IMG/VR virus record: IMGVR_UViG_3300023112_000039
Coordinates: 1 to 40,390 of that record
Source: a virus
Direction: 5' to 3' (one strand)
DNA length: 40,390 bases
Shown: positions 17,439 through 36,523 of the stretch, piece after piece
How the letters are laid out: each line of letters begins with the position of its first letter
Position numbering within the stretch: the first letter of the stretch is position 1
Position numbers and translations under genes: made by a program
The notes under the pieces: model-generated
The model's input: the letters and a program-made list of their open reading frames with translations, nothing else
The model's database searches: none
Told to the model about the DNA's origin: nothing

Positions 17439-17497
17439 GTTAGCGCCCTCCGCGTGCGCGTTTGTGTTACGTATTTTGTTTTCTCGAAAGCGTAACG

Positions 17498-17938
17498 CTA
17501 CTTGCTTTTGCTTAACTCACGCTTGCGCTCCGTTAACTCCTTGCGCTTGGCCTCGATCTCTGCCATCTCCTGCGTTTTTTTCAGCTCTTGGTGTTCGTTT
17601 CTATCGATTCTGACCTCGCGCCCGCACAGCTTGCAGGTTTTGCAAAGTGCGGTAGCTTGTCCAATGTAGTGATCGGTTCCCCGAATTGCTATGGTTGCGG
17701 GAACATCTATGCCCCCCGCCTCCCACTCCTCATGAGGGCAAAGCTTTTCAACGATACTCTCAAGGATCTCGATATCGGTCTCGGCATCTGCAATGTCTTC
17801 GGCAAAACCTACGTAATCGTCGATCTGTTTTTGTTGCCGCCTCTGCCGTTTAGCGACTCCGATGTATAGGGTCACGTCCGCGGCCGATATTGCGATCAGT
17901 CCCGCGACGAATATGATTCCTGCTAATGCTTCACTCAT
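17498..17938 (-). CDS. Membrane-anchored protein with coiled coil and zinc-ribbon motif
   Basis: The start is ATG 17938, with an AAAGGAGGAGAAATC site. The longer frame to 18247 would run through the tmRNA and is rejected. The 146-residue product has one N-terminal transmembrane helix (ALAGIIFVAGLIAISAADVT), a basic stop-transfer segment and a helical stretch. A CPHEEW / CKTCKLCG zinc-ribbon-like pair follows, then a charged C-terminal coiled coil. It is the first gene after the tmRNA. Role unknown. Confidence 0.65.
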   Translation of the reverse strand: MSEALAGIIFVAGLIAISAADVTLYIGVAKRQRRQQKQIDDYVGFAEDIADAETDIEILESIVEKLCPHEEWEAGGIDVPATIAIRGTDHYIGQATALCKTCKLCGREVRIDRNEHQELKKTQEMAEIEAKRKELTERKRELSKSK

Positions 17939-17950
17939 GATTTCTCCTCC

Positions 17951-17984
17951 TTTTTTTATTAAAAGCGTAACGCTTTGTTTTAAT
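17951..17984 (-). terminator. Hairpin after the tmRNA, possible weak terminator
   Basis: On the minus strand AAAGCG, TTA, CGCTTTT form a short stem with a few flanking A-T pairs. It lies between the tmRNA 3' end and the ribosome site of the membrane-protein gene. GC content is low and the U run short, so some readthrough into the small-gene cluster is likely. The AGCGTTACGCT core recurs elsewhere in the genome. Confidence 0.35.
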
Positions 17985-18000: not shown

Positions 18001-18420
18001 TGGAGGTGGGGGGAATCGAACCCCCGTGTTGTAACCCTTCCGACCCAACGTTTACGACAATCAGCACGTTATTCATGCGTGCAACTATCCGGTTATGACA
18101 TACCGACAAACAGGGACAACCGGCGACCCTCACGGGACGGAGTTGAATTCCACCAGTCTGTTTTTTTGCCTCGTCAGACCGAGGGTTCTTTTCACGAGTC
18201 GTGATTTGTTGGCGTCCGGATTCCTCTCGCATCCTTCCGGGCCTCACCTCGCGGGAGCTTCATTGACGAATCAACGATTAAGCAGCGATTGCAGACAGTG
18301 CCTGCGGGAACTGGATTACTTTCGTAGCAGTTGTGTTTTGATTGATTATTAAGGAGGCCAACAATCATCCTCCTGTCGTAGTTGAGAATTCAATGGCACA
18401 GTCGAAACCATATCACCCCC
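18001..18420 (-). ncRNA. ssrA: tmRNA (transfer-messenger RNA), phage-encoded
   Basis: The 5' end GGGGGTGATATGGTTTCGAC (18420..18401) and the 3' end with T-arm GGGGG-TTCGATT-CCCCC and CACCTCCA (18008..18001) are the two halves of a tmRNA tRNA-like domain. The 7-bp acceptor pairs GGGGGTG with CACCTCC and has the G3-U70 wobble needed for alanine charging. The 3' CCA is not encoded. PK1 is visible: AGGAGG (18374..18369) pairs with CCTCCT (18357..18352), and loop bases pair with AATCA downstream. The resume codon GCT at 18328 starts the tag ATKVIQFPQALSAIAA, with TAA at 18280..18278. It would rescue stalled ribosomes and mark proteins for proteolysis. Phage structural genes lie on both sides, so it is part of the phage genome. 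Confidence 0.93.
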
Positions 18421-29815: not shown

Positions 29816-32056
29816 CTAAAATAGCTCCATATTCTCAGACTCTGCGTTACTCAAATTCTTACAAGCCTGTTTATAATAAGATTCTTTAAGCTCAAATCCG
29901 ACGAATTTACGTTTTAGCTTCAAAGCCACATATCCCTCAGATCCAATCCCCATAAACGGGCTGAGAACAGTATCTCCTTCATTAGACCACAACTGCAGAC
30001 CTCTTTCAATCACATCAAGCTGAAGCGGGCATATATGTCGCTCATCATTATGCTCTCGCGCCGAACGTTTCTGAAGCGTTTTTGAAGGGTTGATATCCAT
30101 CCAAACCGGAGAAGCGTAACGCTGCCAGATATCGATTGAAAGATTTCCGGTATTCTGGAATGTGTTCTCATCACCAGCAAACCACTCGAACTCACCAGCC
30201 ACTGGATTGTCATTAACGCCGTCTTTACGCATTGTGACTAAGTAGTCAGGGATGCCTTGCCGTGACATACACGAGTCTTTTTTAACCTGCTTATGAAGCA
30301 ATCCGAGAGCTTTTGTCCGCTGCATAGCAGTAACTGGATCTTTCCAGATACAAACCTCTGAGTGAAAGATGAATCCCTCGTTTTCAAATATCTTGATCAT
30401 CTCGCCACGAAAATCTCGGATTCCAATAACGCCATCACGCGCTTTTGATGTTGGCAGGTTCATGCAGTGAAAGCTCATCAGTCTGCCTGGCTTTGTCACG
30501 CGGAAAAGCTCATGCGCTAAAAATTTAAAGTGTTCTGAGAACTCCTCATTGCTTTTGCAGTTGCCCATGTCGCGGTCGCTGTTGCTGTACGTATACAGCG
30601 ACGCAAATGGTGGACTGTAAATTGTATAGCCGATTGAGTTATCTGGCAAACTTGCAACACCTTCGACGCAATCCCCTAAGTTAGCTTCCCATCCTTTTCC
30701 TGTCGTTTCTTTCACTTTATATTCCCCTTTGTCTTTTGATGTTCCCTTGATGTTTTCTTCATTGTAAACGTGCATATTTGCTACCATCTCATTCGCCATT
30801 GCCATAGCATCACTCTCTTTTCGTTCGATATTCTTAACAACCGCGCCCTCTGTTTCTGCGGTGATGATATAAGCGTCAACCGTTTTCTTTTGCCCGAACC
30901 GCCAACACCGACGAACGGCTTGGTAATACTGCTCGTAAGAATCAGACAATCCGACAAACGCCATATTATGACAGTTCTGCCAGTTCATGCCGAAACCGGC
31001 AATCTTTGGCTTCGTAATCAATACGCGATATTTGCCTGCTGAAAATCCAAGCATCCGATCTTCTTTAACCTCATGCTTATCAGATCCGCTCACTTCGATT
31101 GCGTCTGGAATAAGCCGTTTAATTTCCGCAGCCTCATCATTAAGATTGCACCATATAAGCCATTGCTCGTCGTTTCCGTTCGCCATCCTCGCCGCCTCCT
31201 GTGCGCGGTCGCTGATTGTTAGTTTGCGCTCCTTTTGGCGTTCCTGCAAAGTGCTGGCCTGCATCCTGAAAAGCATACCGTCTGCGGATTCATGCTCGGC
31301 AACGGAAACCTGGATGTTATTTACATTTAGCTTTGGAAGATCAAATCCGTCATCGCAGTATCCAAGGTCTGAAGGTTTACGAATCATCACCGCCCAGTTA
31401 CATACCCACTTCCAAAACTCTGATTGTGCATGGCCCTTCAGTCTCCATTTCTGAGTTTCCCCGCCATCATGGACAAAGAACATCGAAAGCATCTCTGTGC
31501 GACTCATAGCACCAACGAACTCTGCATGATTACCAAGCTCCATAAAATCGTTTGGCGCTGGTGTAGCAGTGCACGCAAGACGAAACGGGATGGACTGGCA
31601 ACCTTCAATGATTTGATTGCGGATCTTTCCTGTATAGGCTTTTAATATTGAGCTTTCATCAAGTACGATACCGCCGAACTGATCAAGGTTGACATTATGG
31701 AGCTGTTCATAATTAGTAATGTAAATGTGTGGCCCGAAAACATCAGACTGCAATGAATCGATATGAATCCCGAACTTTTTTCCCTCGTTAATTGTCTGCT
31801 TCGATACAGCCAATGGAGCCAGAATCAAAACCGGCATATCTGTTTTTTCAGATACACGATACGCCCATTCAAGTTGCATCAATGTTTTTCCCATTCCGCA
31901 ATCTGCAAAAATACAAGCGCGACCGCGACTCAATGCCCAGTGAACGATATCCCTTTGAAAATCAAATAGGTTTTCATTCAGGTTTTCTTTTGCAAACTCA
32001 AACCCAGTATCCGGGTCAATCATCTCTTTGTTTTTTATAAACTCATTATATTTCAT
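29816..32056 (-). CDS. SNF2-type helicase fused to a beta-class DNA methyltransferase
   Basis: About 746 residues. The helicase half has Walker A ADCGMGKT (residues about 51-58), LDESSILK as the DExx motif and QAVRRCWRFGQ, a SNF2-like motif VI. From about residue 465 a methyltransferase follows: ANLGDCVEGVASLPDNSIGY, then TIYSPPFASLY, where SPPF is the catalytic motif of N4-cytosine/N6-adenine enzymes, and DTVLSPFMGIGSEGYVALKL as the AdoMet-binding motif. The order of motifs is beta-class. It would modify phage DNA against restriction, with the motor aiding movement. Start chosen at the second ATG because GGTGGA is spaced 6 bases from it. Confidence 0.82.
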   Translation of the reverse strand: MKYNEFIKNKEMIDPDTGFEFAKENLNENLFDFQRDIVHWALSRGRACIFADCGMGKTLMQLEWAYRVSEKTDMPVLILAPLAVSKQTINEGKKFGIHIDSLQSDVFGPHIYITNYEQLHNVNLDQFGGIVLDESSILKAYTGKIRNQIIEGCQSIPFRLACTATPAPNDFMELGNHAEFVGAMSRTEMLSMFFVHDGGETQKWRLKGHAQSEFWKWVCNWAVMIRKPSDLGYCDDGFDLPKLNVNNIQVSVAEHESADGMLFRMQASTLQERQKERKLTISDRAQEAARMANGNDEQWLIWCNLNDEAAEIKRLIPDAIEVSGSDKHEVKEDRMLGFSAGKYRVLITKPKIAGFGMNWQNCHNMAFVGLSDSYEQYYQAVRRCWRFGQKKTVDAYIITAETEGAVVKNIERKESDAMAMANEMVANMHVYNEENIKGTSKDKGEYKVKETTGKGWEANLGDCVEGVASLPDNSIGYTIYSPPFASLYTYSNSDRDMGNCKSNEEFSEHFKFLAHELFRVTKPGRLMSFHCMNLPTSKARDGVIGIRDFRGEMIKIFENEGFIFHSEVCIWKDPVTAMQRTKALGLLHKQVKKDSCMSRQGIPDYLVTMRKDGVNDNPVAGEFEWFAGDENTFQNTGNLSIDIWQRYASPVWMDINPSKTLQKRSAREHNDERHICPLQLDVIERGLQLWSNEGDTVLSPFMGIGSEGYVALKLKRKFVGFELKESYYKQACKNLSNAESENMELF

Positions 32057-32079
32057 ATACATTCCACCAATTCCGACCG

Positions 32080-32870: not shown

Positions 32871-33050
32871 ATGGCGAAGAAAACACCGAATATTAAAATG
32901 AAGAACCTGAAGATTAGTCCGGCCTGTGACAGCAGACTGACGCGATACGTTAAAAAGAAATGCGGTCGCGTTTATGGCAACAAGGCAGCAGAGGCCGAGC
33001 GTTTAATCAACGAGGGAATCAAGAATGAATCAAAAGAAGGCCGGGGTTAA
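32871..33050 (+). CDS. Small basic DNA-binding-type protein (59 residues)
   Basis: First gene after the second early promoter, with an AAGGAG site 7 bases upstream. MAKKTPNIKMKNLKISPACD is followed by SRLTRYVKKKCGRVYGNKAA and EAERLINEGIKNE. One strand and two helices suggest a ribbon-helix-helix (Arc-like) fold, though I cannot place it in a family. It could bind the AAAGATAA repeats in its own promoter, which is speculation. Confidence 0.55.
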   Translation: MAKKTPNIKMKNLKISPACDSRLTRYVKKKCGRVYGNKAAEAERLINEGIKNESKEGRG

Positions 33051-33192
33051 TTACGCACGCAATCCGGCACCGTCTTACTGTTGCCCTGTGTGTAGTGCAA
33101 GGCATGGAAGGCACATAGGAAATACAAGCGATTGCGGGCATTCGCAGGAAGAAAAAGAAAAGTATAGAGAACTGGAAAAGGGGAAGTTATGA
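33025..33192 (+). CDS. Small zinc-knuckle-like protein (55 residues)
   Basis: ATG 33025, overlapping the previous gene by 26 bases in another frame; its TGA overlaps the ATG of the next gene. YCCPVCSARHGRHIGNTSDC plus GH carries Cys and His pairs that could bind zinc. A GAGGGAATC ribosome-like site lies upstream. A charged helix (EEKEKYRELEKGK) ends it. Confidence 0.5.
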   Translation: MNQKKAGVNYARNPAPSYCCPVCSARHGRHIGNTSDCGHSQEEKEKYRELEKGKL

Positions 33193-34100
33193 GTGAAGAA
33201 AAAAAACATGAATTAGCACAGCGCCGAGTAGAGGCTATAACACTGGCGTCAACACTTGACGAGCTTGTCGCACAAGGGGCGCAGGCATATATCGCGTCTA
33301 CGGCAGGAAGCATGGCAGAAACGATGGCTCTTGCCGTTGCTACCGCCGAGATCCAGAAGGCGCTAACGCCAGACATCATGAAGCCTATTATGAGCCTTCA
33401 GGGTACATCCATCGGATTTAAGACCGATAAAACGTACAGCGAAAAGGATGTGAAGCTCGCAATGGTCGAGTCGCTTATTAAAGGCGTACCAATGGCGGGG
33501 AACTGCACAAACATTATTGCCGGTCGCCAGTATACAACCAAGGAGGGGTTCACGTTCCTTATCAACGGACTGATTAAGTCCGGGGCTGTTCATGACTTTG
33601 ATTATGCGCTTGAGGTTCCGCAAAAAGACGGCAACCGCACCACGGTTAAAGGTAAAGCGACGTGGAAGCAGAACAACGAGGAGCAATCTGTAGAAAGCAC
33701 CTTCCCAATCCGTACGAACGGCGGCAGTACGGATGACAACACCCTGGGCAAGGCCGAGCGGAAGCTCAAGGCGCGGTGCTATGAACGCATGACTGGCTTG
33801 AATCTTGCGGACGGCGACACGGACGGGATGGTAACGGTTCAGGGAGAGTCTTGTAGCCCCCTCGATCGAGACCAAGACAGACGGCAGGATGCACTGAACT
33901 CCAGAATCCCAGAGGCCAGAAAGGTTCTCGTTGATTGTAATCCAGAGATCGTTCGCAAATGCTTCGAGGATCAAGGATATGAGTCTTCGTGCGGATCGTT
34001 TGATGAGTGGCTTGACGAGGTAATGGATCAGGTGGTTAGCGCCTATATCCTCGACTCAATCGTCGCGCAAATTGAAAAAGAAACAAAGGAGTCAGAATAA
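33189..34100 (+). CDS. Putative RecT-like single-strand annealing protein
   Basis: A 303-residue protein. GTSIGFKTDKTYSEKDVKLA, MVESLIKGVPMAGNCTNIIA, GRQYTTKEGFTFLINGLIKS and DNTLGKAERKLKARCYERMT form a pattern that resembles phage recombination proteins of the RecT type (GN..NIIAG..Y.TKEG). It may anneal DNA in phage recombination. The genes around it are early, and a coiled-coil partner follows. The identification is by pattern only and could be wrong. Confidence 0.45.
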   Translation: MSEEKKHELAQRRVEAITLASTLDELVAQGAQAYIASTAGSMAETMALAVATAEIQKALTPDIMKPIMSLQGTSIGFKTDKTYSEKDVKLAMVESLIKGVPMAGNCTNIIAGRQYTTKEGFTFLINGLIKSGAVHDFDYALEVPQKDGNRTTVKGKATWKQNNEEQSVESTFPIRTNGGSTDDNTLGKAERKLKARCYERMTGLNLADGDTDGMVTVQGESCSPLDRDQDRRQDALNSRIPEARKVLVDCNPEIVRKCFEDQGYESSCGSFDEWLDEVMDQVVSAYILDSIVAQIEKETKESE

Positions 34101-34101
34101 A

Positions 34102-35283
34102 ATGAGTGAAGAAGCAAAAGCGGAATTGGTTGCTATTGATCCAGAGAAATACAATCTCGAAACGGCAAGCGCGGAAAAGGTCGGGGAGGCCCTGTTGCCT
34201 ATGGTTGTGAAACGTGAGGGATTACGGGAAGAGTTTATCGCAGTGTCCGCTGCGGGAGTTGCGGAGGATAACATTGACCGCGCAAAAACTCTGCTAAAGG
34301 CGCTGGTTAAAACCAGAACCGGAATAGAGACTATCCGAAAAACCCAGAAGGATTTCTCTCTCCAGTACGGTCGGTTTGTTGACGCAGCGGCAAAGGCTGA
34401 AACTGCGCCCGTCGTGCAAATGGAAGATGAGGTCAAGAAAATCACTAAACATCACGAAAACCTCGAAAAAGAGCGCAAGCTCAAGGTGCATAACGAGCGC
34501 AAGGCAATGGCCCTCCGTCTCGATCCGGATGACGCAGAACTCGACTACAGCCGGATGACGGATGAGACGTGGGAAAAGACCTATGAAAACCTTGTTTGGC
34601 TGAAAGAGAAACGTGATTCCGAGGCGAAAAAAGCCGAAGAGGAGCGCATTGCCAAGGAAAAAGAAGAAGCGGAGCGGATCGAGGCAGAACGTGTTGAGCG
34701 CGAACGCATCGAGGCAGAAAACGCCAAACTGAAAGCCGAGGCTGAGGAGCGGGAGGCAAAGGAAGCCGCCGCGCAAGCCGAACGTGATAAGGTGGAGAAA
34801 GCCCGCGTAGAAAAGGAAGCTGAAGAGCAAAAGAAACGTGATGCTGAGGCCGCCAAGATCGAAGCGGAGCGCGAGAAAGAACGCAAAGCCGCCGCTGATA
34901 AGCTGGCTGAAGAAAAGGCAGAGCGCGAGAAGGTGGAAGCCGCCGCGCAAAAGATCCGCGAAGCAGAGCAAAAAAAGCGTGATGACGAGCATAAGGCGAA
35001 GGAGAAGGAACAAAACGCAAAGATCGCAGCGAATCAGAAAAAGCTTGCCGAAGAGAAAGCAAAACGCGAGGCAATCGAAGCGGAAGCCAAGGCGAAAGCG
35101 GAGGCTGAGGCAAAGGCGAAAGCAGATGCTGAGGCACGCGAGGCGGACACAAAGCACCGGAAGAAGATCAATAACGGCGCGCTTGAGGCTTTCGTTGCTC
35201 TGGGGGCATCAAAGGACGCTGCGAAGGCTATCGTCACCGCAATCGCAAAGGGCGAGGTTCCTGCGGTTCGTATTGATTATTAA
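34102..35283 (+). CDS. Long coiled-coil protein of the recombination region
   Basis: Starts at ATG 34102 with an AAAGGAG site; the frame extends 30 bases upstream into the previous gene. The 393-residue product has a helical N-terminal domain (VGEALLPMVVKREGLREEFI, ALVKTRTGIETIRKTQKDFS). About 200 residues of Glu/Lys/Ala-rich coiled coil follow, and the protein ends in a small C-terminal domain (GALEAFVALGASKDAAKAIV, TAIAKGEVPAVRIDY). This last motif is common in phage coiled-coil (DUF1351-like) proteins beside RecT. The antisense strand is also open because of codon bias, not a gene. Confidence 0.65.
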   Translation: MSEEAKAELVAIDPEKYNLETASAEKVGEALLPMVVKREGLREEFIAVSAAGVAEDNIDRAKTLLKALVKTRTGIETIRKTQKDFSLQYGRFVDAAAKAETAPVVQMEDEVKKITKHHENLEKERKLKVHNERKAMALRLDPDDAELDYSRMTDETWEKTYENLVWLKEKRDSEAKKAEEERIAKEKEEAERIEAERVERERIEAENAKLKAEAEEREAKEAAAQAERDKVEKARVEKEAEEQKKRDAEAAKIEAEREKERKAAADKLAEEKAEREKVEAAAQKIREAEQKKRDDEHKAKEKEQNAKIAANQKKLAEEKAKREAIEAEAKAKAEAEAKAKADAEAREADTKHRKKINNGALEAFVALGASKDAAKAIVTAIAKGEVPAVRIDY

Positions 35284-35307
35284 TTTCGCACTAACGCGGG
35301 ACAAACG

Positions 35308-35359
35308 CCACCCGGTCGAGCATATCGCTCAGTAAATCGTAGGCCGGGTGGTACTTTTT
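35308..35359 (+). terminator. Rho-independent terminator
   Basis: CCACCCGG (35308-35315) pairs perfectly with CCGGGTGG (35344-35351), followed by TACTTTTT. It lies 24 bases after the coiled-coil gene. Genes beyond it are likely expressed at lower level or by readthrough. Confidence 0.75.
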
Positions 35360-35396
35360 AGTAACGCTACCAGTGAGACTGAGGAAAGGAGCGAAG

Positions 35397-35633
35397 ATGA
35401 AACCAATTACAAAGTGCAACCATGACGCGAACAAAGAGCTATGCAACGACTGCATTGCGAAAAACGAGCGAGTTTCCGGTAGCTCTCCAGTGGCTGGTTC
35501 TGCTTCGGAATGTTGCGGGAGTTGCAGAAATTTCACGAGCGAGGATGTTGCCGGAAGAGGGTTTTGTGAAATCAACCAGCATCCGGCAACCTGTGACGAT
35601 TACTGCGGGGCTTATGAAAAGCCGAACGCCTGA
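35397..35633 (+). CDS. Small cysteine-rich protein (78 residues)
   Basis: Starts at ATG 35397 with an AAAGGAG site; an in-frame ATG at 35373 lacks one. Cysteines occur in CNHDANKELCNDC, CCGSC and CEINQHPATCDDYC, two likely zinc sites. Its stop is followed within 3 bases by the first of two twin hairpins. No family recognised. Confidence 0.6.
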   Translation: MKPITKCNHDANKELCNDCIAKNERVSGSSPVAGSASECCGSCRNFTSEDVAGRGFCEINQHPATCDDYCGAYEKPNA

Positions 35634-35636
35634 TTT

Positions 35637-35661
35637 GAGCCTCGTGGTATCCCGTAGGTTC
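35637..35661 (+). promoter_or_regulatory. Twin hairpin leader, copy 1
   Basis: GAGCCT (35637-35642) pairs with AGGTTC (35656-35661), and CG/GG inner bases pair across a TAT loop with bulged T on each side. It starts 3 bases after a stop codon and ends 43 bases before the next ATG (35705). The second copy has identical 43-base spacing. Confidence 0.6.
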
Positions 35662-35704
35662 TAAACACTGGTTATGATTCAAGCATTAAACGAAGGAGAC
35701 AGAG

Positions 35705-35842
35705 ATGGTCAGATTATACACATGGAGCGACGGAGCTGGGTGCTGGATGCACCACAACAACTACAACACAAAGGAAGAGGCGGAGACGACGATTGAAGAA
35801 CGTCGCTACGACCCTCGGTATTGCAAAATTGAAGAAGCATAA
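35705..35842 (+). CDS. Small protein of unknown function (45 residues)
   Basis: ATG 35705 with a GAAGGAGACAGAG site. MVRLYTWSDGAGCWMHHNNY is followed by NTKEEAETTIEERRYDPRYC and KIEEA, a small alpha/beta-looking protein. It sits between the two twin hairpin leaders. No family recognised. Confidence 0.55.
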   Translation: MVRLYTWSDGAGCWMHHNNYNTKEEAETTIEERRYDPRYCKIEEA

Positions 35843-35851
35843 CGCCGATTT

Positions 35852-35876
35852 GAGCCTCGGGTAATCCCGTAGGTTC
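35852..35876 (+). promoter_or_regulatory. Twin hairpin leader, copy 2
   Basis: GAGCCTCGGG (35852-35861) pairs with CCCG-T-AGGTTC (35866-35876) with loop TAAT and one bulged T. It follows a stop codon by 9 bases and lies 43 bases before the ATG at 35920. The inner stem differs from copy 1 in detail but keeps the fold. Confidence 0.6.
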
Positions 35877-35919
35877 AAAATCTTGGTTAGCTGAATATTA
35901 ACATTAACGGAGGAAGCAA

Positions 35920-36153
35920 ATGAACACGGCAGAAATGAACGGAAAACAAATCGCAGAAGTCTGGTGGCCTGATACTGAAACAGAACAGGGTCGCATCATG
36001 AAATCAAGTGATCACGTTTTGCTTGAGATGAGCGCAACTTATCATGGCGACCACGACGAATTCTGGATTGTGGAACACAACAAAATCGAAGGAGAGTTTG
36101 TGGAAACAGCGCGGCACAACCTGAAATTCATCGAAGGATTCAAATGGGCATGA
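35920..36153 (+). CDS. Small protein of unknown function (77 residues)
   Basis: ATG 35920 with a GGAGGAAGCA site. It reads MNTAEMNGKQIAEVWWPDTE, YHGDHDEFWIVEHNKIEGEF and VETARHNLKFIEGF, a beta-rich small protein. It is preceded by the second twin hairpin. No family recognised. Confidence 0.6.
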   Translation: MNTAEMNGKQIAEVWWPDTETEQGRIMKSSDHVLLEMSATYHGDHDEFWIVEHNKIEGEFVETARHNLKFIEGFKWA

Positions 36154-36196
36154 CAGCTAACAAGTGATTAAGGCTCCTTTTGGGGTTACGAATATT

Positions 36197-36523
36197 ATGC
36201 GACGTTCGCGAGAGCTAATAAACAAGGCCAGAAAAAACGGAAGAAGACGCGGGTTGCGTAGTGCAGAAGCGCAGCGAAACAAGCGCCTGTCCTCCGCTCT
36301 GGAGGCATACAGGCCAAGAGACTATCTTGTGTACGAGATCGCAACATTTAACGCAAGAGAGGGGCATACAAACTACCTAGAAATCTGGCATGAGGCCTAT
36401 GGCGGAAACAACAGATACGCCGTCTATTTAAACGGCGAAAAGTGGCGAAACGGATGGAGCAGAACGCGGTTTTGCCAGTTTCTTTTCGAGCAGATAGACA
36501 GCGTAATAAGGATGCAGAACTAA
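36197..36523 (+). CDS. Basic protein of unknown function (about 108 residues)
   Basis: Start uncertain: ATG 36197 is used; a GTG at 36164 is also open but neither has a clear ribosome site. The N-terminus is very basic (MRRSRELINKARKNGRRRGL), then YEIATFNAREGHTNYLEIWH and YGGNNRYAVYLNGEKWRNGW, possibly a small beta sheet. It ends the plus-strand early unit and overlaps the converging endolysin stop by 4 bases. Confidence 0.5.
   Translation: MRRSRELINKARKNGRRRGLRSAEAQRNKRLSSALEAYRPRDYLVYEIATFNAREGHTNYLEIWHEAYGGNNRYAVYLNGEKWRNGWSRTRFCQFLFEQIDSVIRMQN

Follow-up and report, generated by a model that had tools for sequence, protein, structure and literature searches.

A hairpin-bearing leader occurs twice, its hairpin in near-identical form, before two small genes in a 40,390-base virus record, the whole of which was analyzed and is called the window here. 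Our leading explanation, which we consider quite possible though short of probable, is that this is a duplicated intercistronic stem-loop leader that may act on the mRNA, by blocking exonucleases or by pausing, like the galE hairpin; by this analogy, we infer a regulatory role for the leader hairpins. The module would consist of a stop codon, a hairpin and a 43-nt linker with a Shine-Dalgarno sequence (SD), set in a rightward phage operon whose genes are small orphans. In the polycistronic message, the hairpins at the gene junctions would stop 3'-to-5' exonucleases and would perhaps also act as pause hairpins. Segments of the message would thereby gain separate stability, and the SD some 30 nt downstream would remain accessible. 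A single local duplication would have produced the second leader, and the gene that lies between the copies or follows them would later have been swapped or have diverged past recognition. The repeated leader possibly also aids gene-cassette exchange.

The window carries a contractile-tail gene set (tail sheath, major head protein, terminase and DnaB-like helicase). The majority of its genes are on the minus strand, and the repeat pair lies near the end of a rightward operon that extends from about 32871 to 36523. The features of this region are as follows.

35307 to 35359, plus strand: hairpin with a U5 run, intrinsic-terminator-like, before P0003, in contrast to the two U-less hairpins
35397 to 35633, plus strand: P0003, 78-aa cysteine-rich orphan gene, upstream of copy 1
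35632 to 35661, plus strand: hairpin copy 1; outer stem GAGCCU/AGGUUC, bulged U, inner stem CG-GG/CC-CG with a U bulge, UAU loop
35662 to 35704, plus strand: linker of leader 1, 43 nt, with SD AAGGAG and the shared GGTTA and CATTAA-ACG boxes
35705 to 35842, plus strand: P0001, 45-aa orphan gene, after leader 1 and between the two copies
35847 to 35876, plus strand: hairpin copy 2; outer stem GAGCCU/AGGUUC, bulged U, inner stem CGGG/CCCG, UAAU loop
35877 to 35919, plus strand: linker of leader 2, 43 nt, with SD GGAGGA
35920 to 36153, plus strand: P0002, 77-aa orphan gene, after leader 2, unrelated to P0001

The repeat covers 43 nt (35632-35674 and 35847-35889) and is 84% identical without gaps through GGTTA. 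The two copies are 215 bp apart and enclose one small orphan gene, P0001. Within the repeat, the hairpins GATTTGAGCCTCGTGGTATCCCGTAGGTTC (35632-35661) and GATTTGAGCCTCGGGTAATCCCGTAGGTTC (35847-35876) differ at only 3 of 30 positions, all of them near the apex, and the hairpin pattern, for which shuffling the window gave an expected count of 0, was found twice. The presence of a near-identical element in two copies, as the sequence-only reading had it, is thus borne out, and so is the claim that each copy ends exactly 43 nt before an ATG (35705 and 35920). The accompanying statement that each copy directly follows a stop codon needs adjustment, since copy 1 overlaps the upstream TGA (35631-35633) and copy 2 is separated by 4 nt from the upstream TAA (35840-35842). 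The downstream products are indeed unrelated: no homology between the 45-aa and 77-aa proteins was detected and neither has known relatives. Protein queries with the neighboring 303-aa, 78-aa and 77-aa products also found no relatives. The description of the two small genes as early is plausible from their position only.

Both copies keep the same fold despite differing inner bases, as claimed, and they do so because the inner stem shifts its register; no compensating pairs are involved. The bulged U is on the 3' side of the stem, the loop has 3 or 4 bases, and the stem of copy 2 can be extended by GAUUU/AAAAUC. As 30-mers, copy 1 had a minimum free energy of -9.3 kcal/mol (z -2.9) and copy 2 one of -14.5 kcal/mol (z -4.1); in the extended 40-nt form copy 2 reached a z of -6.7, and copy 1 was modest with a z of -2.0. 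Because of a G-U pair in the outer stem, the plus strand folds better than the minus strand (-9.3/-14.5 versus -6.7/-11.4), which favors an RNA over a DNA palindrome; this argument is a single observation common to both copies. When the leaders were folded alone, the hairpin formed with a probability of 0.96-1.0, and the SD, which sits some 30 nt beyond it, was unpaired at 96% in leader 1 and 46% in leader 2. With the upstream coding sequence included, the prediction for copy 1 changed from the hairpin to pairing with the last part of the 78-aa gene, and for copy 2 there was no rival pairing with the preceding gene end. The alternative is a long helix that the 3' end of this gene can make with copy 1 (35587-35650, plus strand; 81-nt fold, z -3.0). 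Because of this predicted rival pairing, the copy 1 hairpin may form only while ribosomes occupy the end of the 78-aa gene.

Each hairpin lies between a stop codon and the next SD, has no U-run and is stable, copy 1 only moderately so. The 3' flanks are TAAACACTGG and AAAATCTTGG, and a terminator scan listed neither hairpin, in agreement with the earlier view that these are not intrinsic terminators. A second stem-loop before the SD (GUUA/UAAC) and sequestration of the SD by a hairpin arm were considered and rejected, the energies being weak or no better than those of shuffles, and the strand bias of CGTAGG was dropped as a functional sign since it is ordinary among hexamers.

The similarity is not confined to the hairpin. 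With gaps, it extends over about 79 nt, beginning with AACGCC, at or just before the upstream stop codon, and reaching the SD, with a local score of 82.5 versus 20.2 ± 4.4 for shuffles. The region after the hairpin was by itself more alike in the two copies than shuffles (p 0.002), and the same was found for the 15 nt preceding the hairpin (p 0.0035). The first 60 nt of the downstream genes, in contrast, were no more alike than shuffles (p 0.40). The leaders end in CGAAGGAGACAGAGATG and CGGAGGAAGCAAATG. Because the similarity spans the leader yet not the downstream genes, the duplicated unit is the whole leader and not the hairpin alone, and the equal 43-nt spacing to the start codons may just have been inherited with the duplication. 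The leader of the 78-aa gene was considered as a possible third copy and rejected, as 73% and 9% of shuffles aligned as well with leaders 1 and 2, respectively.

Within the duplicated leader, is the hairpin under constraint? A recent or relict intergenic duplication without regulatory function, in which the direct repeats are the scar of a gene-cassette gain or substrates for recombination, is the strongest competitor, and we regard it as possible but rather doubtful. It would account for exactly two copies, 215 bp apart, around one small orphan gene and none elsewhere, and for a leader that is homologous throughout. It fits less well with the distribution of the differences. Identical columns amount to 27 of 30 in the hairpin and to 31 of 48 in the alignment of the 43-nt linker (3 versus 17 differences; Fisher p 0.016), which hints that the hairpin is constrained; outside the five apical bases, all 25 of 25 hairpin bases are identical (p 0.0003, for a split chosen after the data had been seen). 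Such conservation could alternatively come from gene conversion or chance. That both copies keep the fold also speaks against a functionless duplication, but retained structure is weak evidence for selection, because, of the 27 triplets possible where the copies differ, 9 would leave the hairpin as stable as copy 1; likewise, among triple mutants of copy 2 made at random, 32% were equally stable. The covariation term was 0, every shared pair being identical in both copies, in a comparison of two sequences only.

A search for further copies bears on all of these readings. A covariance model run without filters found no other copy in the rest of the window; its weak minus-strand hits fell at the same places and reflect the palindrome. 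Three patterns were run against IMG/VR and one against the GTDB representative genomes, and hits occurred only at chance number; those inspected were within or antisense to coding sequence. One of 32 such chance-level hits (L088) has a hairpin of similar look, GAGCCTCGGGTATCCGTAGGTTC, but lies antisense inside a coding gene, and four further pattern hits (L003-L006) were taken as chance given the numbers searched, the L005/L006 site reading antisense to an apparent reading frame. There was no match in 17 virus records that share the helicase-methyltransferase or the terminase or that had pattern hits. In a sample of 369 genomes from the class of Pseudomonas, two weak matches to the model (L092 and L093; E 0.0017 and 0.03 per genome) were obtained, which is about the chance expectation for this many genomes, and they were rejected. 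Blastn of the repeat region returned nothing from phage records or plasmids. With Rfam 15 covariance models, only a tmRNA elsewhere in the window passed the gathering score, and nothing meaningful was seen over the leaders at E values up to 10.

The phage is an orphan within the collections searched. One candidate relative (G001) was found by its terminase and was rejected, as the terminase is the only thing shared. The DNA helicase with a C-terminal DNA-methyltransferase-type region (29816-32062, minus strand) has 48 IMG/VR relatives with 45-68% identity. For the 303-aa protein (33189-34100, plus strand), a single-sequence model gave a confident core of a helix, three strands and a helix; a fold search returned nothing below an E of 0.001, and a recombinase is only a candidate identity. 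The tmRNA gene (18001-18420, minus strand) looks complete (Rfam, 75 bits; tag peptide ATKVIQFPQALSAIAA) and lies among the head and packaging genes of this 40-kb phage; blastn of phage records gave no match to it. The small gene next to the tmRNA is flanked by another hairpin-bearing repeat, AGCGTTACGCTTT (24 nt, 83%; 17476-17499 and 17951-17974, minus strand), which is thus a further repeat pair around one small gene.

The sequence-only reading had called the element a repeated RNA control element. Its RNA-like character, the better folding of the plus strand and the position before two unrelated genes are in line with this, but covariation in the stems and further copies, both of which had been proposed as checks, were absent, and the reading is weakened because of this. 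It is plausible but unproven, and a regulatory switch or a protein-binding site is possible, judging from sequence. The missing copies and covariation lean toward a local duplication with a hairpin that is maybe constrained. Against our preferred reading stand the same facts: there are two copies only, no relative carries the element, and copy 1 is modest alone and has a rival pairing.

A binding site for a phage or host RNA-binding protein or for a small RNA, which would coregulate translation of both small genes, is unlikely. The recognition features would be the conserved outer stem, the bulged U and the 43-nt spacing; outer stem and bulge are indeed invariant, the distance to both ATGs is the same, and the GGTTA box behind the hairpin is shared. 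However, the SD is not sequestered by the hairpin, the duplex energies of the CCUC arm with the SD were no better than those of shuffles, the equal spacing has the simpler explanation of inheritance given above, no third target gene is present in the genome, and the variation falls in the loop and the inner stem, where such contacts are often made. A DNA-level promoter or operator repeated before each gene, like the extended start-associated sequences (ESAS) of cluster K mycobacteriophages, is improbable. The imperfect inverted repeat upstream of a conserved ribosome-binding site at constant spacing would suit it, as would a TATGAT at 35673-35678 in copy 1, but the best sigma-70 scores (5.2 and 6.5) compare with a median of 4.8 and a 90th percentile of 7.4 for equal windows, the best sites are at different places in the two copies, and the symmetry includes a G-U pair and so is not a perfect DNA palindrome. 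Least probable of all is a phage-specific RNA regulon in which a phage factor would recognize the hairpin leader, with its outer stem, bulged U and fixed 43-nt spacing, as a portable cassette that places whichever small orphan gene is inserted after it under common posttranscriptional control.

For the preferred intercistronic stem-loop leader, the closest working analogy is the hairpin at the galE-galT junction of E. coli, which has an 8-bp stem and a 4-base loop, blocks a 3'-to-5' exonuclease and is proposed to prolong pausing (PMC9239205, where it is the E-hairpin of galE); an intercistronic stem-loop of Rhodobacter puf that stops 3' exonuclease is cited in the same paper. Like the galE hairpin, the phage hairpins are short and GC rich, lie at a gene junction upstream of the next SD and have no U-run, and their stems of 8-10 bp and loops of 3-4 nt are of similar size. 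Unlike it, the phage element occurs as a homologous pair, in front of unrelated genes.

Start-associated sequences (SAS) and ESAS are repeated leaders before unrelated nonstructural genes of cluster K mycobacteriophages (PMC3203893), and ESAS were later reported to include SigA-like promoter sequences (PMC11373665). The phage leaders resemble ESAS in having an imperfect inverted repeat and a conserved ribosome-binding region before nonstructural genes of different families, in larger intergenic gaps. In ESAS, however, the arms are 17 bp long, a genome carries several copies, SigA-like promoters are included, and a 13-bp SAS directly adjoining the start goes with them. The phage leaders have two copies and arms of 10-11 nt; the 13-bp SAS GGGATAGGAGCCC was absent 3-9 nt before the start in both leaders, and promoter scores for a SigA-like promoter within the inverted repeat were at background in both. 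PeSL cassettes of T4-type phages (Arbiol 2010, Comeau 2014) join an early promoter to a terminator stem-loop, as cited in PMC4503421. They too are intergenic cassettes with a stem-loop that recur on either side of small orphan genes, and they could promote shuffling; the phage leaders differ from them in having neither an early promoter above background nor a U-run terminator. Because the defining features of both fail, the element is not filed as SAS/ESAS or PeSL. All three may share a logic in which several small genes make use of the same leader. On present evidence the effect is confined to one phage either way. If the hairpin is not functional, the repeat would record how a leader was duplicated on both sides of an orphan gene and one way in which small genes are gained; if it is functional, this phage would reuse a leader for different orphan genes, as SAS/ESAS and PeSL do, but without a promoter or terminator.
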